Below, piece by piece: positions 48,937-58,753 of a stretch of 64,000 nt of DNA. This DNA is from Terrimonas sp. (GTDB lineage: Bacteria; Bacteroidota; Bacteroidia; Chitinophagales; Chitinophagaceae): positions 124,001 through 188,000 of the forward strand of contig NZ_QCZJ01000001.1 of assembly GCF_003075435.1 (NCBI RefSeq), written 5' to 3'. The translations under genes and the position numbers were made by a program. Numbering within the stretch: the first letter of the stretch is position 1; each line of letters starts with the position of its first letter. The notes under the pieces are model-generated. The model had not been told where the DNA came from, did not search any database, and was given only the letters and a program-made list of their open reading frames with translations.

Positions 48937-50142
48937 TTGAATAACATTAACCATATTATTGAGCGGCAAAGTATAGCTATAAATTTTGAAGATCCCGGTC
49001 TGCATATCGGCATACAAAACCGTATAGCAGAATTATTTTATACCCGTTTGCAGCCCCGCATGGAAAGCCTGTTTAACGAGATGGCAGATGATGATCATGT
49101 TGCTATAATAGATAAGCTGGAAATAGATTGCGGTCATTTACCCGCAAAGCGTTGGGAAGAGGAGTGGGTTGATTGCGCCATAAGAAAATTAAAAGAGCAA
49201 CTAACTGTTATCTCAAAGAAAAAAATGGGAGCGGCTGATATACAGGCTGATTTTTTATATTTTTTGCAACAGGGTCAACTCCCATGGAACAGCAGGGTAA
49301 AATCTTTAAAAACTTTTGAGCAATCCATTGTATTGGATCATATTTTTTTGGAAGCGCTCAAAAATATTTTACCGGGAAATAATGTTGTTGAAAGATTAAC
49401 GCGCCGGTTTTCAGCAGGGTTTATTCCAAAATTGATATATGCACTAACAGAAAACGAAATACAATATGGACCTGGAAAAGCCGGATCTTTTAATGCTGCT
49501 AACGTACAATTAATTACAGGGCAGCTAAGTGCCCGCCAACTGGAAGTGCATTTAAAAAACCTGGCGAAAGCCATTGCGCCCGGTAAAAAAAATAACAGCA
49601 AACCGGCATCTGATAAAACAGGTACACCGGTTCCTGCAAATCCATATATCGGAAATGCAGGCATTATGCTTCTTCATCCGTTTTTGCCGGCATTGTTTGA
49701 AGCGCTGCATTTAACCATACAACAGCAATGGGTAAACGAAGATGCGCAACATCGTGCGGTTTTAATTACAGCTTATATCACTTCAGGAAAAGAGGATTTA
49801 CCGGAATTTGAGCTGGCGTTAAACAAATTGATATGCGGACTGGACATTTCTGATACACTTCGTCAAATACCGGACGCAATAACTATTGAAACAATATCAG
49901 CATGCGAAGAAATGATCACTACAGCTATACAACATTGGGCAGCTTTAAAAAATACAGGTATTGCCGCTTTCAGAGAAACCTTCCTGCAAAGAGAGGGTAA
50001 AATAACAAGTGTAGATAAAGGATGGCTGTTGCAGGTAGAACAGAAGGGGGTAGATGTGCTGCTGAATAGCTTACCATGGGGAATAGGGGTTATTAAATTT
50101 CCCTGGATGAACAATCTTTTTTTTACAGAATGGAATAGTTGA
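48937..50142 (+). CDS. Contractile injection system tape-measure protein (Afp14-like)
   Basis: The 401-aa product has both conserved ends of CIS tape-measure proteins. The N-terminal block includes FNEMADDDHVAIIDKLEIDCG and WVDCAIRKLKEQL. The C-terminal block includes GNAGIMLLHPFLPALFEAL, LICGLDI, FRETFLQREGKI, LLNSLPWGIGVIKFPWM and a final TEW. The tape measure sets tube length; this one is short because the variable middle is small, predicting a short particle. The start is a TTG immediately after the previous stop, the only option in frame. The CHAP gene follows after 41 nt. Confidence 0.88.
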   Translation: MNNINHIIERQSIAINFEDPGLHIGIQNRIAELFYTRLQPRMESLFNEMADDDHVAIIDKLEIDCGHLPAKRWEEEWVDCAIRKLKEQLTVISKKKMGAADIQADFLYFLQQGQLPWNSRVKSLKTFEQSIVLDHIFLEALKNILPGNNVVERLTRRFSAGFIPKLIYALTENEIQYGPGKAGSFNAANVQLITGQLSARQLEVHLKNLAKAIAPGKKNNSKPASDKTGTPVPANPYIGNAGIMLLHPFLPALFEALHLTIQQQWVNEDAQHRAVLITAYITSGKEDLPEFELALNKLICGLDISDTLRQIPDAITIETISACEEMITTAIQHWAALKNTGIAAFRETFLQREGKITSVDKGWLLQVEQKGVDVLLNSLPWGIGVIKFPWMNNLFFTEWNS

Positions 50143-50183
50143 ACGCATGCAGATGTTAATCAAATTAATATAAACTGGTATTT

Positions 50184-50939
50184 ATGGAATTTTTAAAAAA
50201 AGGAAAGCAGGGTACCGCAGTTATTGAACTCCAGCAAATTTTGCGTGAGCTGGATTATAACATATCAGTAACCGGTGTATTTGATACTGATACCTATAAA
50301 ACCGTCAGGAATTTTCAAAGTAGTCATTTGGATATACATGGCGTGCCATTGGAAGTAGACGGCAAGGTTGGCGATATTACCTGGTGGGCACTAAAAAATC
50401 CGAGAACAAAAATTGTTGGTGGTGTAATTGACTATACAGTAATGCCTCCTGCCGGTGCAGGAGGCACAAGCATTGGAAGAAGCGCTTTACAGTTTGCGAT
50501 AAATGAACTGAGATCAGGTGCAGGTGAAGTAGGCGGTAACAATATGGGTCCCTCGGTAAAAAAATATTTACAACCCTCGGGTGTTCCGGAAGGCAGTTCC
50601 TGGTGTGCTGCATTTATCAGCTGGTGTTTTTTGCAGGCAGCCGGTGGCGACAGAAAAGCGATGCCTTTCAGATATACAGCCGGCGCAAGAAATATTTATA
50701 ATCAATACAAGCAAAAAGGATGGTCTTTTGATGGAAACAGCGATCTGCCGCAGCCGGGAGATATCGTTGCATGGTGGCGTGTAAGCATGCCATCGGGGCT
50801 TGGTCATATAGGGATTGTTCATCACTATGCTGATGGATTTATATATACCATTGAAGGCAATAAAGCAGCGAATGTTGCAGGTTTTTCCTATGTAAAAACA
50901 AGACTTGACAAATTGCTGGGATATGGAAGAGTACAATAA
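50184..50939 (+). CDS. Peptidoglycan-binding domain plus CHAP hydrolase in the eCIS operon
   Basis: The 251-aa product has an N-terminal PG_binding_1 repeat (residues 1-75: GKQGTAVIELQQILREL, VTGVFDTDTYKTVRNFQ) and a C-terminal CHAP domain. The catalytic Cys is in GSSWCAAFISWC and the His in GLGHIGIVHH, with IEGNK closing the site. CHAP enzymes are amidases or endopeptidases that cut peptidoglycan. There is no signal peptide, so it would act from the cytoplasm at lysis, or travel with the particle. It lies between structural and cargo genes, 8 nt before the first DUF4157 gene. Confidence 0.9.
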   Translation: MEFLKKGKQGTAVIELQQILRELDYNISVTGVFDTDTYKTVRNFQSSHLDIHGVPLEVDGKVGDITWWALKNPRTKIVGGVIDYTVMPPAGAGGTSIGRSALQFAINELRSGAGEVGGNNMGPSVKKYLQPSGVPEGSSWCAAFISWCFLQAAGGDRKAMPFRYTAGARNIYNQYKQKGWSFDGNSDLPQPGDIVAWWRVSMPSGLGHIGIVHHYADGFIYTIEGNKAANVAGFSYVKTRLDKLLGYGRVQ

Positions 50940-50947
50940 ACAGGCGT

Positions 50948-53398
50948 ATGCAGCATGCAGTAAAAGAAAATAAAACAGCTATAAGCACAAAAAACGCCGG
51001 ATCTTTTTTCGGGAAGGCTCCGTGCAATTCTTTTTTTGCTCCTGCTGTTGTGCAACCCAAACTTACCATTGGCCCGGTAGATGATCCATATGAACGGGAG
51101 GCGGATAGTGTAGCCGACAGGGTGATGCGAATGACAGATGCTGATGTGCAGCAAAGCAAGCCGGTAGCTGTTCAGAGAAAGTGCGCGGAATGCGAAAAGG
51201 AAGAACAGGTACAAAAAAAAGAGGATAATGATTTTATCACTTCAACGACAGGAAAAAATATTCAAAGATCACCCGGCGATAATGATACTACGGCCGGTAA
51301 TGAAGAAAGCACCCCGGCAACACCATTTTTAAGAATAAGAATAACCTTGCATGATTTGTATGACAGGGAAGATAACGACATGGCAAACTATGGTGAGGCG
51401 AATATTGAGATGATCCGCAGAGGAGTAATATCCCCGGGAGATTATACAGTTCCTTATGCCGCGCTGTGGAATAATAATTACCAGCTTTCAACACGCTGGG
51501 GGCTTGGCAGAATCACAAAGAATGTATACGAAAAAGGAGATAATCTTTTAAAACCAATAAGAGGTATTGTTGGAAAAATTCCCCTTGCCGGCGGGTTTAT
51601 AAGCAGTAAAATAAAATTAAGTAAGCCAGATCTTAAAGGTGGAGACTGGGACAGGTACATAGCTGATAAAACTACCTTAATGGCATTGGGCGGGGCATTG
51701 GACAGGGACAACCCGGCATATAATGCAGGCAGTGGATTTACATTCACCATCAATATTGTTGACTTTCACTTTGATGAAAACAGGTTATTCAGAAAACCTG
51801 TGAACAGTAATTATACTCCACTTTTCCAAATTAGCCGTAAATGCGCACAGTGTGAAGAAGTAGATAAAAAAGCGCAAATGAAAAGCGAAGCCGCAGGCAG
51901 CGGCGGAATAATAGCGCCTTCCATTGTTCATAATGTTATTAACCGGAATGGCCAGCCGCTTGATGCAGTTACAAGAAATTTTATGGAATCCAGGATGGGT
52001 TTTGATTTCGGAAATGTGCAAATACATAATGATTCAGAAGCGCATCAATCTTCATCCGCTATTAATGCGCTGGCATATACCAGCGGTAATCACATAGCAT
52101 TTGGAACAGGGCAATATCAGCCGGATAGCATTGAAGGAAGAAAGTTACTGGCGCATGAATTAATGCATGTGGTACAGCAACAAAGCACTCAGGTGCGTCA
52201 CCGTATCAACCGGTTTTCTGATACCGACCATCATATAGCAGAAGAAATAGCGCTTTCTGATTTATTTACACATGAACAACTGGAGAATATTGAAAGGGGA
52301 AATATGGGGAGAGATTATAGCCAGTTACCTCAGAAGGCTGCCTCGTTACTGGTACCGGGCACTCCTTTCGGCAATTATCACACACATGAACATTTTGATA
52401 ACTTTATTTTTGACAGGGAAAAGAACAAATGGGTAAGCCATAAAGAATATGATAAAATATGGGATGAGGGTAGTAAAGACTGGGTAAAAAGAAAAGCGCC
52501 CTCTTTGGCAGGCGCTCACGCACCACGCATTACGCCAATAGCATATATTGAAAGCCAGTTGATATCTGCAGTTGAAAAAGATGTTCCCGATCCTGCTGCA
52601 TTTATTCATCTTGGCAATGCTTTTCATACTATTGAAGATTTTTTTGCACACTCTAATTTTGTTGAGCTCATACATGAAGATTTTTCTTCCGGTAAGGAAC
52701 TGACTACACATCCGCCCGGGGCTGTTGGCCCATCATCTGAAGATTCTATTCTTAGTAATGTTTCAGATCCTGTTAGCTCCGCTTTCTTTTTAAACCGGTT
52801 TAAAACGCTGCAACAAAGCGCAGAATCAGTATCTCATGGTATTCTGGCTAAAGATTTTCATTCTAACAAATATCATTCAATAGCAATTACCCTTGCAACA
52901 TTGGTAGTGAGAACTATTGGCGGATTATTAAAACATGCTTTTACGCTCGCTACAAAAGACCTGCGCACGGAATATGTTAAAACAGGTATCATGGGATTGG
53001 TAACCGGCTATTTAAGACCTCCGGATATTAAAAATAAATGGTGGGAAAAAATGCTTGAAGAAGACGCAGGCATCACACAAAAAAGAATAAAACTATTGCA
53101 GGAAAAAACGCCTGTAACAGTCAACCAGCTTCCCGGCAGTCCTTTGCGTGCATTTGAAGCTACACGGTTTTCTTCCTGGAAAGCTATTGGATTAGGCACT
53201 TCGGTTTCTGTACCATTAAAGGATAAAACATTTTTCACCGCGGGATTTATGGTGTCACTTCCCGGCACAGGCCAGTTGCCGGATAACTCATTATTAGTTG
53301 CGCCAAAATCTGAATGGGATGCAGGGCAACCTCAGATTATTTGGGGAGCACAGGTTTCAGGTACGTTTGACCTGGCAGATTTAATAAAGAAACATTAA
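50948..53398 (+). CDS. DUF4157 eCIS cargo 1, with HET-C-like domain
   Basis: The 816-aa product has a DUF4157 leader (KLTIGPVDDPYEREADSVAD), a CxxC box RKCAECE (Cys79/Cys82), an unrecognised 200-aa beta-rich domain (about 105-290), a second CxxC box RKCAQCE (Cys299/Cys302), and the DUF4157 core ending in HELMH (403-407). A HET-C-like domain follows, with HTIEDFFAHSNFVEL (His560, Glu563, Asp564, His568). The HET-C fold is related to zinc phospholipase C/P1 nuclease enzymes, whose metal-binding His/Asp set this resembles. A 150-aa C-terminal domain is unknown. No signal peptide. DUF4157 is a known marker of eCIS cargo; toxicity is inferred. Confidence 0.82.
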   Translation: MQHAVKENKTAISTKNAGSFFGKAPCNSFFAPAVVQPKLTIGPVDDPYEREADSVADRVMRMTDADVQQSKPVAVQRKCAECEKEEQVQKKEDNDFITSTTGKNIQRSPGDNDTTAGNEESTPATPFLRIRITLHDLYDREDNDMANYGEANIEMIRRGVISPGDYTVPYAALWNNNYQLSTRWGLGRITKNVYEKGDNLLKPIRGIVGKIPLAGGFISSKIKLSKPDLKGGDWDRYIADKTTLMALGGALDRDNPAYNAGSGFTFTINIVDFHFDENRLFRKPVNSNYTPLFQISRKCAQCEEVDKKAQMKSEAAGSGGIIAPSIVHNVINRNGQPLDAVTRNFMESRMGFDFGNVQIHNDSEAHQSSSAINALAYTSGNHIAFGTGQYQPDSIEGRKLLAHELMHVVQQQSTQVRHRINRFSDTDHHIAEEIALSDLFTHEQLENIERGNMGRDYSQLPQKAASLLVPGTPFGNYHTHEHFDNFIFDREKNKWVSHKEYDKIWDEGSKDWVKRKAPSLAGAHAPRITPIAYIESQLISAVEKDVPDPAAFIHLGNAFHTIEDFFAHSNFVELIHEDFSSGKELTTHPPGAVGPSSEDSILSNVSDPVSSAFFLNRFKTLQQSAESVSHGILAKDFHSNKYHSIAITLATLVVRTIGGLLKHAFTLATKDLRTEYVKTGIMGLVTGYLRPPDIKNKWWEKMLEEDAGITQKRIKLLQEKTPVTVNQLPGSPLRAFEATRFSSWKAIGLGTSVSVPLKDKTFFTAGFMVSLPGTGQLPDNSLLVAPKSEWDAGQPQIIWGAQVSGTFDLADLIKKH

Positions 53399-53406
53399 AC
53401 CTGGTA

Positions 53407-54654
53407 ATGAATGCTATAAAGAAACATATTATTCCCAATGATAAAGCGCCATGCAGGAACACAGCTTTCTTTCAATCCAAACTTACCATCAACCAGCCCG
53501 GCGACAAATACGAACAGGAAGCAGATACAGTGGCAGAGCAGGTTCTTCAATCAAAACAACAACCAGGAGTATCTTTCTTTCAACCAATAAATGTATCTGC
53601 ACTGCAACGCAAATGCGCTCATTGCGAAGAAGAAGAAAAGGCAGTGCAGCGAAAAGAACAAAGCAATGCTTTAATAGAACCACCACAAAACGTAGAACAA
53701 TATGTAGGGGGTCTAAGCAATAAAGGGGCAAGCCTGCCTACTCAGACCAAACAGTTTTTCGAATCAAGAATGGGTTATAATTTCAGTGATGTAAAAGTAC
53801 ATACCGATAGTTTGGCTGCTAAGTCGGCCCAAAATATTAATGCGCTGGCTTATACCACCCGTAATAATATTGTTTTTAACAGCGGGCAATACCAGCCGGA
53901 TACAGACAACGGGAAAAAACTGTTAGCACACGAACTGGCGCATGTAGTGCAGCAAAAAAATAATCCGCAAACAATATTTAGACAATCCGCAGATCAAGTC
54001 CCAAAGATTGGAACAGGAGCATATGCGGCCTACAACCAATGGAATTTAGAAAAAATTGTTGAAACTACACATTGGGCAAATGATGAAAATAAAAACAGAT
54101 TTATTGCAGAATATTTAGAATATTGTTACCTGCATCCAAAATTAAATGATCAATGTATGCAAGCCATTAAGGTAGATCCTGAGTATTCAGTAGATTTTCG
54201 GTTAGGAGATTGTACTAAAGAGCAGAGGTCCAGACTGCGAAAAAGAATAAGTGAAGAATGTAAATCTTCCAAAAGATCTTGTGCAGTTACTGATTCTTGT
54301 AAAGTTTTACGAGAAAAAATAAGCAGAAATACTGCATGCATTGAGGCAAGACAGGCTGAAATGAGCATTTGTTATAAAGGAGGTGATCAAATACATAAAG
54401 ATGTTTTGTCCAAAGAAATTATGGCTCTAACAAATTGCATGCTTTATTTCAGGAAAAAATGTTTCCAATCAACAGATCCGTCACCAATTTTTTATCCCTA
54501 TCCAGAAGGGATAAGAGTAGAAAATGAAGATGAGGATTTTATGAAAAAAATGGAAGAAATTACTGGTTTATCAGGGGCTGCTTTGATTTTATATATTATT
54601 GTATCCGAAGGTTCAAGATTATTTCCACCAAGAAATCTTGTACCAATACCATAG
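53407..54654 (+). CDS. DUF4157 eCIS cargo 2, with Cys-rich C-terminal domain
   Basis: The 415-aa product has the leader TINQPGDKYEQEADTVAEQV, the CxxC box RKCAHCEEEEK (Cys70/Cys73), and a DUF4157 core with RMGYNFSDVKVHTD and HELAHVVQQ (175-183). The C-terminal part (200-370) is rich in cysteines spaced through helices, with the block CIEARQAEMSICYKGGD followed by H. That pattern is familiar from C-termini of polymorphic toxins but I cannot name it. A hydrophobic helix (about 388-402) near the end could insert in a membrane. By eye this C-terminal half is more AT-rich than the N-terminal half, consistent with later acquisition. No catalytic site identified. Confidence 0.8.
   Translation: MNAIKKHIIPNDKAPCRNTAFFQSKLTINQPGDKYEQEADTVAEQVLQSKQQPGVSFFQPINVSALQRKCAHCEEEEKAVQRKEQSNALIEPPQNVEQYVGGLSNKGASLPTQTKQFFESRMGYNFSDVKVHTDSLAAKSAQNINALAYTTRNNIVFNSGQYQPDTDNGKKLLAHELAHVVQQKNNPQTIFRQSADQVPKIGTGAYAAYNQWNLEKIVETTHWANDENKNRFIAEYLEYCYLHPKLNDQCMQAIKVDPEYSVDFRLGDCTKEQRSRLRKRISEECKSSKRSCAVTDSCKVLREKISRNTACIEARQAEMSICYKGGDQIHKDVLSKEIMALTNCMLYFRKKCFQSTDPSPIFYPYPEGIRVENEDEDFMKKMEEITGLSGAALILYIIVSEGSRLFPPRNLVPIP
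53485..53543. repeat. 59-bp leader repeat, copy A
   Basis: This stretch, encoding the TINQPGDKYEQEADTVAEQ leader of cargo 2, is identical base for base to 54778-54836 in cargo 3. A third copy in cargo 4 (56268-56303) differs at one of 36 positions. The identity is at DNA level and includes silent positions, pointing to recent duplication or gene conversion. Confidence 0.9.
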
Positions 54655-54690
54655 ATCTTTAAAACACATAATTATTATCTTCTAATCTGT

Positions 54691-56169
54691 ATGTTCAGCT
54701 TGAATACAATAAAAAATAGCACAGTGAATATCTCGAAAAAAGAAGACAGAAATCTCATTTTTTTTCAACCTAAGTTCACCATCAACCAGCCCGGCGACAA
54801 ATACGAACAGGAAGCAGATACAGTGGCAGAGCAGGTAATGAGAACACCCGGAGAAAATAAACAAATGTTCTTTCAGCCACAAATCACCCCGATTAATACT
54901 ATACAAAAAAAGTGTGCGCATTGTGAGGAAGAAGAAAACAAAGTACAAATGAAAAGCAATGGAGCTGTTGCTATAGAAGCACCAGCTATTGTGCATGATA
55001 CTATTAAAAACACTGGTAATCCTTTAGATGCAGTCACCAAAAATTTTATGGAATCGCGATTTGGATATGATTTCTCAGATGTGCATATCCACAATGATAC
55101 ATTAGCTCATCAATCATCATCTGCTATTAATGCAAAAGCTTATACCAGCGGCAACCATATAGTATTCGGAGCAGAACAATATCAGCCAGGAACCAATGCC
55201 GGCAAACAATTACTGGCGCATGAGCTTACGCATGTGGTTCAGCAAAATAATATAAGCCGCCAGGTACAAAGAGTGCCCTGTTCTGGCTACTCTTTTAAAA
55301 CATTAACTTATGCATCTGTTGCAAATGAGCACGACTTTGCAGCATTGGATGGTTATACGCCCTTAAAAGGCAGGGCATACGATATACTAAGTGATGGGAA
55401 AAAATATTTCTTCTGCTTTAATAATCAAAAAATTTTTGTTAAGTATATTGATACTAAGTTAGTACCCGACCTTAAAAATCAATTGGAAGCAAATTATAAG
55501 ATAAAAATTGAGAAAGGAGGTAAAAACTGGAGCGATGCTGATCTTATCCTGTTGAATGAAGCATTCTCTATGCTAACTACATCAGAAACGGCTTTGATAG
55601 AAAACTACCGCTTCATCAGGGAGAAGCAATCTGCCGTAGTTGATGGGGATGTTATCTGTGGTTTGCACAGTGTTGACATTATCAAAAGAGACTATACCAT
55701 ACAAATAGCTGATGCCTGTATAAAAGATCCTCTGGGAAAAGAAAAAACAAAATTCGGAATAGACTATGGTGTATTCAATATTTTGCATGAAATAGGACAT
55801 GCAATTGAATATGGGCGGTTAAGACTTGCCACAGAAAAATATTACGATGCAAAAAAAGCATTAGAAAAATTCCGGGAACAATTTGACAGGGCTTCCTCTG
55901 CTAATCAAAAAAGCATGACAAAACAACTCGGATCTTTAAAAACTACAATGGATAATGCTTTTGATGAATTGGACCGCGCCCTGGATAAATCTACTTTAGA
56001 TCAATTCAGTAAGTTTATTAAAGGTAAAAGAGCGCTAACCGATTATTCAAAAAAGAATGCGACGGAAGCTTTTGCAGAAGCCTTTGCCATATTCAAAGCT
56101 AATCCTAAAAAATTAGAAAAAGATAACAAGAAATTATTTGATTGGTTTTTTAATGCAGGTTTTAGCTGA
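54691..56169 (+). CDS. DUF4157 eCIS cargo 3, with lethal-factor-like zincin domain
   Basis: The 492-aa product has the shared leader (residues 28-50), the CxxC box KKCAHCEEEENK (Cys75/Cys78), and a DUF4157 core with RFGYDFSDVHIHND and HELTHVVQQ (177-185). A second metalloprotease motif, HEIGHAIEYG (366-375), is followed about 90 residues on by TEAFAEAFAIF (458-468). HExxH plus a downstream EAFAE helix is the pattern of anthrax lethal-factor-type (M34/ATLF) zincins, in which the Glu of the second motif is a zinc ligand. The C-terminal domain is thus a likely active protease. No signal peptide. Substrate unknown. Confidence 0.82.
   Translation: MFSLNTIKNSTVNISKKEDRNLIFFQPKFTINQPGDKYEQEADTVAEQVMRTPGENKQMFFQPQITPINTIQKKCAHCEEEENKVQMKSNGAVAIEAPAIVHDTIKNTGNPLDAVTKNFMESRFGYDFSDVHIHNDTLAHQSSSAINAKAYTSGNHIVFGAEQYQPGTNAGKQLLAHELTHVVQQNNISRQVQRVPCSGYSFKTLTYASVANEHDFAALDGYTPLKGRAYDILSDGKKYFFCFNNQKIFVKYIDTKLVPDLKNQLEANYKIKIEKGGKNWSDADLILLNEAFSMLTTSETALIENYRFIREKQSAVVDGDVICGLHSVDIIKRDYTIQIADACIKDPLGKEKTKFGIDYGVFNILHEIGHAIEYGRLRLATEKYYDAKKALEKFREQFDRASSANQKSMTKQLGSLKTTMDNAFDELDRALDKSTLDQFSKFIKGKRALTDYSKKNATEAFAEAFAIFKANPKKLEKDNKKLFDWFFNAGFS
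54778..54836. repeat. 59-bp leader repeat, copy B
   Basis: Identical to 53485-53543; the distance between the copies is 1293 bp, the full length of one cargo unit. Flanking bases diverge at once on the right (GGTTCT in copy A, GGTAAT in copy B). Confidence 0.9.
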
Positions 56170-56183
56170 TTGAAAAAAATATT

Positions 56184-57377
56184 TTGAAACGTACATATCC
56201 GCATATCATTCCACCTGTTCGGAAAGAAAATGGCAGTGGCATTTTCTTTCCGCCAAAGCTTTATATTAACCAGCCCGGCGACAAATATGAACAGGAAGCA
56301 GATGCTGTATCAACCCGGGTTATGCAAATGCCGGGAAATATCAATACAGGTTCTTTTTTTCATCCCTCATCATCTTCAATGCAGGCTATTCAAAGAAAAT
56401 ACCCGCATTGTGGGGAAGATAAAACACAAACAAGATCATCAACTGCAACACCTGGAGATATGATTGCACCTGCTGCCGTACACAATACGATCAACAACGC
56501 CGGTACCCCGATGGACACAACTACCAAAAACTTTATGGAGTCGCGGTTTGGATATGACTTTGGCCGGGTGCGTATTCATGATGATGCATCAGCTCATCAA
56601 TCATCAGCATCAATAGATGCACTTGCATATACACACCAAAATCATATCGTATTCGGCGCAGGTCAGTACAAGCCGGAAACTGCTGCAGGCAAACAATTGC
56701 TGGCACATGAGCTGGCACATGTTACTTTACATCAGCATCCCAATTTATTAACCAGGCAAAAAAATCCTGTTACAACCGCAACACCAATGCCGGCAGGAGG
56801 TATTGCTCAAAAAGCCGGCGGATTCACCATACAGGTTGGATATATTGCTATTGTTGTTAAACCGGATGTTTATAACTCTGCGAGAGAAAAATCCAAAGAA
56901 GCACATACCTATATGGACATTACCCGATTCACTGTGCCCGATCCTGATTTTGATGTTGATCCTAAAACGAATACAGTCACGAAATTTAAACCTTACCCTG
57001 CTTTACAAATTGAGTTGACGGTGGAAACAAATTATGGTTCTGGCATAAATCCTTCCGGGCCTTCTGATTACGGGTATGGTACAAGACGCGGTGATCCAAA
57101 AACCATCAGTTTTCATGAAGGATCGCATGGCAGCGAATTCATAAGTTATATTCAGAAAGAAATTAAGAAATTCCCTCAACCGGCATTTGAAGGAAAAGCC
57201 GGCATGACAAAAGAAGAATTCAAAAAGAAAGATGATGAATATATCGCAAAGATCGGGGAGATTCAAAAGATGCTGAAGTCCGCCGCAGCTTATGCAACGC
57301 AGGTGGTTGACTGTGCCGGAAAATCCATAGACGCACATAATAAAGGCAAACGTGGTTATCAGAATGTTTGTCCCTGA
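56184..57377 (+). CDS. DUF4157 eCIS cargo 4, with HEGSH-containing C-terminal domain
   Basis: The 397-aa product starts at a TTG. It has the shared leader (YINQPGDKYEQEADAVSTRV), a decayed Cys box RKYPHCGED in which the first Cys is Tyr73, and a DUF4157 core with RFGYDFGRVRIHDD and HELAH (175-179). The C-terminal domain (about 205-397) begins with beta strands and contains GTRRGDPKTISFHEGSHGSEF, with HEGSH at 311-315, then a helical region and a terminal Cys pair (DCAGK, NVCP). HExxH suggests a zinc peptidase, but a third ligand is not obvious, so activity is uncertain. The family is not recognised. Confidence 0.75.
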   Translation: MKRTYPHIIPPVRKENGSGIFFPPKLYINQPGDKYEQEADAVSTRVMQMPGNINTGSFFHPSSSSMQAIQRKYPHCGEDKTQTRSSTATPGDMIAPAAVHNTINNAGTPMDTTTKNFMESRFGYDFGRVRIHDDASAHQSSASIDALAYTHQNHIVFGAGQYKPETAAGKQLLAHELAHVTLHQHPNLLTRQKNPVTTATPMPAGGIAQKAGGFTIQVGYIAIVVKPDVYNSAREKSKEAHTYMDITRFTVPDPDFDVDPKTNTVTKFKPYPALQIELTVETNYGSGINPSGPSDYGYGTRRGDPKTISFHEGSHGSEFISYIQKEIKKFPQPAFEGKAGMTKEEFKKKDDEYIAKIGEIQKMLKSAAAYATQVVDCAGKSIDAHNKGKRGYQNVCP

Positions 57378-57418
57378 TATTATAATTTTCATTATTAAAC
57401 AGATAAACCATATTTATT

Positions 57419-58753
57419 TTGCCACAAAAAATTATCCATACACTTTCCGGGGTTCTTGAAAAAGTAATTGACAGCAGGCTGCAGTTGTTTTTTAAAAAAG
57501 AAAATAATAAAGCATTTGCTTACCCTGCAATCAAATCAAGCAAAAGGGATAAGTCTGCGCTGAATACATTCATCCATGATCACAAATTAAATAACGAAGA
57601 GCTGACAATCCTGCTGCTTGCATTCATGCCGCATGTACAACCCAATTTTCTGGATTCCATTATCCAGCAATACCTTCCCAATGGTGGTGAGTTCCCGGAA
57701 ATAGGCGGTGTAAAAGGAAGCAATCACCGCGGTACCATACCTACCGGTGAAACAGCTTTATTTATTATTGCAGGCAATGATATTGATAAAAGAATAAAAG
57801 CTTCGGCATATTTTTCACCTGATCATTTTTTTGCGAAAGAAAACATACTCTCGCTGGAGCAGGTAAAAGAAGGTGAGCCACGTATGAGCGGCAAGCTTAT
57901 GCTGCAGCAGGAATATGTTGATCTTTTTACTACAGGTATAATAAGCAAGCCGGTATTTGGCGCCGAATTTCCTGCAAAGCTGGTTACTACCAAAATGGAA
58001 TGGAAAGACCTGGTGCTGAATCCCAAAACAGCTTTGCCCATCAGTGATATTAAAATATGGCTGGAACATAACAACCGGCTGATAGATGAATGGAAAATGG
58101 ACAAGCGTATAAAACCCGGATACAGGGCTTTATTTTATGGTCCTTCCGGCACAGGTAAAACGCTAACCGCTACCTTATTGGGCAAACAATTTAAAAAAGA
58201 TGTATACCGCATTGATCTGTCACAGGTTGTTTCAAAATATATAGGAGAAACAGAAAAAAACCTGGAAAAAATATTTGTGAAAGCCGAACATAAAGACTGG
58301 ATATTATTTTTTGATGAAGCTGATGCGCTTTTTGGCAAACGAAGTAATGTGCAGAATGCGCACGATAAATATGCCAACCAGGAAGTATCTTATTTATTAC
58401 AACGGGTGGAAGATTTTCCGGGGTTGATCATCCTTGCTTCTAATTACAAAAGCAATATCGACCAGGCTTTTGTGCGCCGTTTTAACACTATCATCCAGTT
58501 TCCTATACCTGATGCGGAAGAACGTTTTAAATTGTGGGTATCTGCATTGCCGCCCGGCGCAACCCTGGCAGAGGATATCAGTCTTGAAAACATTGCAGCT
58601 AAATATGAACTGACAGGGTCTTCAATAGTAAATGTAATACACTATGTATGCCTTAAAGCAATGGCAAATGATAGCAATATTATTACTAAACCAAGTTTAC
58701 TGGAAGGCATTAAGCGGGAATATGAAAAAGAAGACCGGGTATTTAAACCCTAG
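57419..58753 (+). CDS. AAA+ ATPase of the eCIS (Afp15/Pvc15-like)
   Basis: The 444-aa product has a helical N-terminal region and an AAA+ domain with Walker A GPSGTGKT (241-248), Walker B WILFFDEADALFGKR (about 293-307), sensor 1 IILASNYKSN and arginine finger FVRRFN. Afp15-type ATPases are needed for assembly or cargo loading of eCIS particles and are a standard part of these loci. It is the last gene of the operon, 41 nt after cargo 4. The only in-frame start at the 5' end is a TTG. It converges on the E2 gene with a 36-nt gap. Confidence 0.92.
   Translation: MPQKIIHTLSGVLEKVIDSRLQLFFKKENNKAFAYPAIKSSKRDKSALNTFIHDHKLNNEELTILLLAFMPHVQPNFLDSIIQQYLPNGGEFPEIGGVKGSNHRGTIPTGETALFIIAGNDIDKRIKASAYFSPDHFFAKENILSLEQVKEGEPRMSGKLMLQQEYVDLFTTGIISKPVFGAEFPAKLVTTKMEWKDLVLNPKTALPISDIKIWLEHNNRLIDEWKMDKRIKPGYRALFYGPSGTGKTLTATLLGKQFKKDVYRIDLSQVVSKYIGETEKNLEKIFVKAEHKDWILFFDEADALFGKRSNVQNAHDKYANQEVSYLLQRVEDFPGLIILASNYKSNIDQAFVRRFNTIIQFPIPDAEERFKLWVSALPPGATLAEDISLENIAAKYELTGSSIVNVIHYVCLKAMANDSNIITKPSLLEGIKREYEKEDRVFKP

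Follow-up and report, generated by a model that had tools for sequence, protein, structure and literature searches.

Four tandem DUF4157 proteins with a shared front end and unrelated C-termini as probable cargos of an extracellular contractile injection system in Terrimonas

What are four adjacent genes that begin alike and end differently doing beside the genes of an extracellular contractile injection system (eCIS)? The question is raised by a 64 000-nucleotide stretch of DNA from Terrimonas sp. (contig NZ_QCZJ01000001.1, positions 124 001 to 188 000; hereafter the window), in which four open reading frames (ORFs), here termed O1 to O4, occupy the 3' end of an eCIS operon, after its CIS_TMP gene and ahead of an AAA ATPase gene.

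50948-53398, + strand: O1, ORF of 816 amino acids (aa)
53407-54654, + strand: O2, ORF of 415 aa
54691-56169, + strand: O3, ORF of 492 aa
56184-57377, + strand: O4, ORF of 397 aa with a TTG start

A first-pass annotation, made from the letters of the window, had described four tandem DUF4157 ORFs at 50948-57377, and all four were indeed found there, adjacent and on one strand, with spacers before, between and after them of 8, 8, 36, 14 and 41 bp. Such a four-cargo arrangement is far beyond chance. It is very probable that O1-O4 are cargos of the adjacent eCIS, a reading already present in the annotation as 'an expandable cargo cassette for one particle' and well supported by their position, by their eCIS_core domain and by the published loading of AlgoCIS cargos of like build. 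The wider statement, that they belong to a known polymorphic kind in which a constant front end precedes an exchangeable effector C-terminus, and that they would be loaded by the steps set out below, is also probable, if slightly less so.

The front end was examined first by profile. eCIS_core (PF13699, formerly DUF4157) scored 105.4, 103.2, 109.3 and 99.0 bits in O1, O2, O3 and O4, respectively, against a cut-off of 22 bits, and stands N-terminal to another domain in 4/4 cargos. The four front ends are mutually related, with 45-63% identity across 130-193 aa, and the leader ahead of the core has an E-x-E/Q-A-D motif. A single CxxC is present in O2 (aa 70-73) and in O3 (aa 75-78), while O1 has two (aa 79 and aa 299) that flank an insert of about 190 aa. 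Thus the annotation's sequence of leader, Cys box and DUF4157 core was borne out in all four for leader and core, but only in three for an intact Cys box, that of O4 being degenerate (YPHC); the counterpart of O4 in the sister locus L076, described below, has an intact CAHC. The insert of O1 is likewise present in L076 and had no further match among 396 genomes of the order.

51956-52189, + strand: eCIS_core of O1 (PF13699, aa 337-414)
51248-51820, + strand: insert of O1 between its two Cys boxes, about 190 aa

As had been noted, none of the four appears to have a signal peptide: on the Kyte-Doolittle scale, a simple scale and not a trained predictor, the best 15-residue mean in the first 60 aa was 0.05-0.93, and there was no hydrophobic stretch. 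Among 77 collected DUF4157 proteins, a set that counts a few genes twice, once cut by the locus end, 34 had the strict leader motif, 41 a CxxC ahead of the core, 20 the two together, and 75 HExxH. The front end of O1-O4 is therefore typical, and its Cys box common but dispensable.

The C-termini, of about 210-400 aa each and with enzyme-like motifs, are by contrast four different domains, as the annotation had it, since blastp between them gave no match better than E 2.2.

52190-53395, + strand: Het-C-like C-terminus of O1 (PF07217 at aa 551-578)
aa 267-344 of O2, + strand: Ntox16 C-terminus (PF15523, 51.7 bits against a cut-off of 25, profile positions 3-82 of 85)
56757-57374, + strand: FHEGxH-family C-terminus of O4, assigned by family searches, with HEGSH at 57114-57128

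The description of O1 as HET-C-like passed the Pfam cut-off (24.9 against 21 bits), and the HxxxDxxxH and Nxx[DE] residues listed for Het-C by Zhang 2012 (PMC3482391) are present as HTIEDFFAH (aa 560) and NFVE (aa 570), yet the match covers just 28 of 561 profile positions. In O2, the 'Cys-rich' C-terminus does hold 10 Cys but is identified as Ntox16, and DQIH at aa 327 agrees with the [DNE]xxH motif of that family (PMC3482391). The 'lethal-factor-like zincin' of O3 has HEIGH (aa 366) and a downstream Glu in EAFAEAFA (aa 459), while its ATLF score (PF07737) of 17.1 bits lies beneath the cut-off of 27.4, as does the 20.6 bits of its ortholog. This Glu may have the role that it has in lethal-factor-like peptidases. 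O3 may thus work like a lethal-factor-type zincin, and we do not assign it to the ATLF family. Searches of PDB sequences with the C-termini of O2 and O3 returned nothing useful.

The C-terminus of O4 matched no family in Pfam, NCBIfam, PHROGs or PDB sequences (best PDB E 0.26), and no relatives were found in viral contigs or plasmids. Family searches instead recovered an O4-type family with an invariant FHEGxH, present at 20 loci in several phyla, at 17 of which DUF4157 lies in the same or the next ORF; a weak TPR_1 match was seen in one of 21 members. We did not find the domain named in the available portions of the cited eCIS literature, where an unnamed domain cannot be searched for by text and an earlier mention is possible. 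On these comparisons it is probably a new effector-domain family, through which the known eCIS payloads would gain a widespread and uncharacterised family of enzyme-like domains. Its members are not limited to cargos of eCIS, because three loci (L079, L084, L087) hold the domain with no DUF4157 in view. These loci adjoin a ceramidase gene (Thalassomonas) and metabolic genes (Anaerolineae).

Does the association with eCIS hold beyond the window? A survey of 195 genomes of the family kept rows at E 2e-19 or better together with one row of genome G180 at 1.1e-11, weaker rows (to E 0.001) being dropped, and it counted cores rather than genes, two clusters (G060:C22 and G180:C10) having two cores in one ORF. 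Strong cores were found in 40 of the 195 genomes, in 46 clusters. CIS_TMP was present in 37 of the 40, and the other three (G060, G123, G178) have Pvc16_N. The clusters comprised 20 with a single core, 16 with two, 4 with three, 5 with four and 1 with five; G026 and G152 likewise have arrays with four separate core genes, and thus the O1-O4 array is large but not unique. A further, weak eCIS_core match (25.7 bits) occurs in the same genome as the array, in a 99-aa frame (G000:C16:59786-59980, L005).

In all, 40 of the 46 clusters could be tied to eCIS genes. Twelve lacked CIS_TMP inside 25 kb; six of these stand at eCIS genes, either in the fetched stretch (G123, G077:C1, G178) or with Pvc16_N some 20-23 kb off (G055, G114, G060:C22), and six remain unlinked, three of them on long contigs (G007:C29, G060:C21, G109:C11) and three others (G043:C485, G145:C94, G145:C226). 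All 11 genomes tested for it have Pvc16_N. The annotation had held that the same proteins at loci with no contractile system nearby would speak against its reading. This was found to a mild degree, in that the three loci on long contigs have no eCIS structural gene in the fetched 20 kb, while their genomes hold an eCIS on another contig, and it does not overturn the cargo reading. One of them (L040, G007:C29:5001-25000) resembles a cargo island, in which several DUF4157 ORFs, one of them with a broken frame, adjoin an AAA ATPase that shares 56% identity with that of the window; no eCIS structural gene was found in this stretch, and Pvc16_N and an over-cut-off sheath gene of G007 are on C41.

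Against which cells the cargos might act is less easily answered. As the annotation stated, no small immunity-like ORF follows any of them, and there can be no separate immunity ORF among O1-O4 because the gaps are just 8-41 bp; the adjacent immunity gene of classical polymorphic toxins was thus absent from the array gaps, which were the places looked at. The conclusion drawn from this, that targets other than sister cells are meant, is weak. Zhang 2012 (PMC3482391) argued likewise and took missing immunity genes as a sign of distant targets, yet most antibacterial eCIS toxins of Geller 2021 (PMC8213781) lack immunity neighbours, and the same paper suggests how a producer could be protected, namely by release through lysis, by distant immunity genes or by a front end that holds the toxin inactive. 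It is accordingly quite conceivable, if not the likelier case, that O1-O4 are antibacterial, although the locus itself gives no particular sign of bacterial targets. The lack of immunity genes is not decisive as to the targets of O1-O4.

A second alternative concerns the core itself, which Zhang 2012 proposed to be a self-cleaving domain, by which the C-terminal toxin would be released in the course of export or afterwards. To weigh this, 98 of 132 collected core proteins were used, namely those with distinct cores in which an HExxH was found and 65 aa follow. HExxH in 98/98 follows from this selection, whereas a His about 43 residues upstream of it, also invariant in 98/98, does not. The HExxHxxQ-E signature of the PVC-metallopeptidase is not kept: HExxHxxQ is present in O1-O3 while O4 is without the Q, and no downstream Glu column exceeded 17 of the 98, in a region that aligns poorly and where a shifted Glu is possible. 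Eleven of the 98, O4 included, lack any Glu from +15 to +60, against 7.1 predicted from composition. We name the DUF4157 cores by their Pfam score; the full metal site of the PVC-metallopeptidase lacks support. Moreover, growth inhibition by the AlgoCIS cargo Cgo1 is independent of its metalloprotease motifs (Danov 2024, PMC11297309, citing Xu 2022). Thus it seems unlikely that release by self-cleavage is the main function of the domain. The first 20 residues of the core model, Cys box included, had a predicted local distance difference test score (pLDDT) of about 50, too low for a judgement on the box, and Foldseek at E 0.001 found no solved relative for two structure models, the core model among them. 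The core model and its fold searches derive from an alignment (A4) of 31 rows, one of which (L079:4577-4981:-) comes from a core-less locus, and no residue count was taken from it.

The cargo reading with exchangeable C-termini gains from a comparison with a close relative. The sister locus L076 lies in a Chitinophagaceae metagenome-assembled genome (MAG SJ21, JADLCD010000081.1; 99% completeness and 3% contamination, as genome G517) and holds the CHAP gene, O1', O3', O4' and the AAA gene, with no O2. The two loci agree at 90.0% identity over 49667-52182, where the O1 core ends, and at 84.5% over 54760-58747, a stretch that opens with the O3 leader motif. Between these flanks lies one block that differs as a whole.

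52183-54759, + strand: block comprising the O1 C-terminus, all of O2 and the first 23 codons of O3

Inside the block only pieces of the O2 front end match L076, and the 827 corresponding bases of L076 had no match in the window. The C-terminus of O1' is unrelated to that of O1 and itself matched nothing in Pfam, while O3 and O3' differ in their first 23 residues. As the sequences stand, the window and L076 are separated by one block, arising in at least one event, which amounts to the exchange of one C-terminus and the gain or loss of one whole cargo. That exchange at this locus is bounded by front ends is, in our view, rather more likely than otherwise. The alternative, that the difference is an artefact of MAG assembly or the sum of several independent events with no single front-end-bounded exchange, draws on the origin of L076 in a MAG; we consider it improbable, as the flanks align unbroken on both sides within one contig of 80.5 kb, the L076 ORFs are intact, both block edges fall at module borders, and a whole-cargo difference is also seen between isolates. 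The latter are two Chitinophaga (L089 and L093), which differ by one whole DUF4157 cargo of 1185 aa situated between the O4-type cargo and the AAA gene. The annotation's term 'expandable cargo cassette' is thus supported by natural variation in both pairs.

In a Chitinophaga locus (L092:51-2330 and L092:7490-9759), the body of the extra cargo has 73% DNA identity to an ORF of about 1000 aa that lies upstream, which again points to duplication inside the array. The C-termini of O1 and O2 were found in no other of the 40 core-bearing genomes, and that of O3 in no other of 248 genomes of the order; the sister genome, which does have O3, lies outside both sets. By these comparisons the C-termini appear to turn over fast.

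Within the array, a tract of 59 nucleotides is identical in the leaders of O2 and O3.

53485-53543, + strand: 59-nucleotide leader tract of O2
54778-54836, + strand: 59-nucleotide leader tract of O3

Synonymous shuffles gave identical tracts of 11-20 nucleotides. Synonymous agreement of O2 and O3 was 21/24 in the leader and 21/47 in the core (Fisher p 0.0004, one of 25 pairs), and across 78 leader bases O3 is nearer to its paralog O2 (71) than to its L076 counterpart (66). The 33-base core of the tract has three sites in the genome at three mismatches or fewer, namely O2, O3 and O4. This tract would fit gene conversion within the leader or a crossover there, of which most other loci give no sign. 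Low leader p-values were confined to this array (O2/O3 0.0004, O2/O4 0.0015) and G007:C29 (0.0017), and between genomes leader codon agreement was near expectation (7485 of 16389 against 7219).

How could these parts work together? The AAA ATPase encoded directly downstream would handle the leader, as suggested by Pvc15, which selects leaders (PMC11495950), and the DUF4157 core, as a small zincin fold, would dock the cargo to spike or tube and so lead to its packing in the lumen, as suggested by a DUF4157 protein that binds spike parts in Streptomyces (PMC13277306). Contraction would then inject the cargo and the C-termini would act in the target cell, putatively as a Het-C-like hydrolase (O1), an Ntox16 toxin (O2), a lethal-factor-like zinc peptidase (O3) and an undescribed, probably zinc-dependent FHEGxH enzyme (O4). 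The shared front ends probably double as homology arms, the single block having the O1 core at one edge and the O3 leader at the other. Tentatively, we join these points into one proposal, in which the front end serves as a tag for loading and also as a handle for recombination, blocks exchanged in nature run from a core end to the leader of a subsequent cargo, O4 represents an undescribed effector family with an FHEGxH enzyme, and the core is a half-zincin docking module whose invariant upstream His replaces the downstream Glu. Under this proposal one event could swap a C-terminus and add or remove whole cargos. Should loading depend on the front end alone, the four natural fusions would differ only in payload and be a ready test set. 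That some of O1-O4 are adaptors or chaperones for other cargos, a DUF4157 protein acting in trans and being no toxin, has parallels in Sle2, which partners a separate effector in Streptomyces (PMC13277306), in the chaperone role proposed by Danov 2024 (PMC11297309) and in two loci (L085, L086) with the O4-type domain and DUF4157 in neighbouring ORFs, but is highly improbable given that each of O1-O4 has its own C-terminus, with enzyme-like motifs and turnover between relatives.

Several points weigh against O1-O4 being injected effectors exchanged and loaded in this manner. The AAA protein of the window has one AAA domain in 444 aa whereas Pvc15 has two (PMC11495950), the Cys box is degenerate in O4 and, as mentioned above, patchy among the collected proteins, and the O4-type domain occurs at three loci with no DUF4157 in view. 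The comparison sequence L076 comes from a MAG. Leader homogenisation as a general rule was rejected, as leader agreement exceeded core agreement in just 14 of 25 pairs.

The remaining genes of the operon that were identified are as follows.

start 31634: Pvc16_N gene, upstream of the cargo array
start 32790: sheath gene, upstream of the array
starts 34241 and 34675: tube genes, upstream of the array
start 35294: CIS_tube gene, upstream of the array
start 35981: Phage_base_V spike gene, upstream of the array
start 38119: gp25 gene, upstream of the array
48937-50142, + strand: eCIS tape measure protein (PF19268 CIS_TMP, 340.3 bits)
50184-50939, + strand: PG_binding_1 and CHAP protein between tape measure and cargos (PF05257, 49 bits; PF01471, 40.9 bits)
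57419-58753, + strand: AAA ATPase, candidate cargo loader (PF00004, 97 bits)

The PG-binding/CHAP protein is 97% identical to its L076 counterpart and endolysin-like by PHROGs, and is possibly a release or penetration enzyme. The AAA ATPase gene adjoins cargos in most fetched loci and is followed here by a gene on the opposite strand.

The locus thus offers a compact natural example of how several unrelated effectors come together in one injection particle, and any pair of close relatives would allow its block borders to be tested again. The arrangement as such has been known since 2012. Statements on the following systems refer to the available portions of the papers cited. Zhang 2012 (PMC3482391) named the core PVC-metallopeptidase and described constant N-termini with highly variable C-termini, among them Ntox16, HET-C and lethal-factor-like peptidases, noted missing immunity genes and proposed recombination. 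These toxins of the Photorhabdus virulence cassette secretion system (PVC-SS) resemble O1-O4 in their constant HExxH N-terminal domain, variable C-termini and frequent lack of an immunity gene, and differ in that Bacteroidetes are unlisted for Ntox16 in the available text; the O4 domain matches none of the metallopeptidase toxins listed there that are held in Pfam.

Geller 2021 (PMC8213781) recorded DUF4157 in eCIS from 13 phyla, frequently on the N-terminal side of a toxin domain, and Danov 2024 (PMC11297309) in 1130 (51.5%) of predicted eCIS toxins. These eCIS-associated toxins (EATs) share with O1-O4 the N-terminal DUF4157, the 3' end of the eCIS operon and, in many cases, the lack of immunity neighbours; we did not find O1-O4 among the EATs tested, as far as the available text of the two papers goes. 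The VgrG2b C-terminal metallopeptidase of a type VI secretion system (PMC6899460) is classed with DUF4157 and is an HExxH zincin like the core of O1-O4, and its absence from the Foldseek list of our core model says nothing about kinship. There, however, the domain is the toxin, with E983 as third ligand and an immunity protein, whereas here it is an N-terminal module with no conserved downstream Glu. The nearest likeness in build is AlgoCIS, in which Cgo1 and Cgo2 fill the lumen (Xu 2022, PMC8894135) and have a similar disordered N-terminus, a central DUF4157, different C-termini and genes in the eCIS cluster; AlgoCIS has two cargos, with loading demonstrated, and the window four, for which loading is predicted. 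To this known arrangement the present locus adds what is probably a new domain family in O4, a concrete exchange of a cargo block and the 59-base leader identity of O2 and O3.

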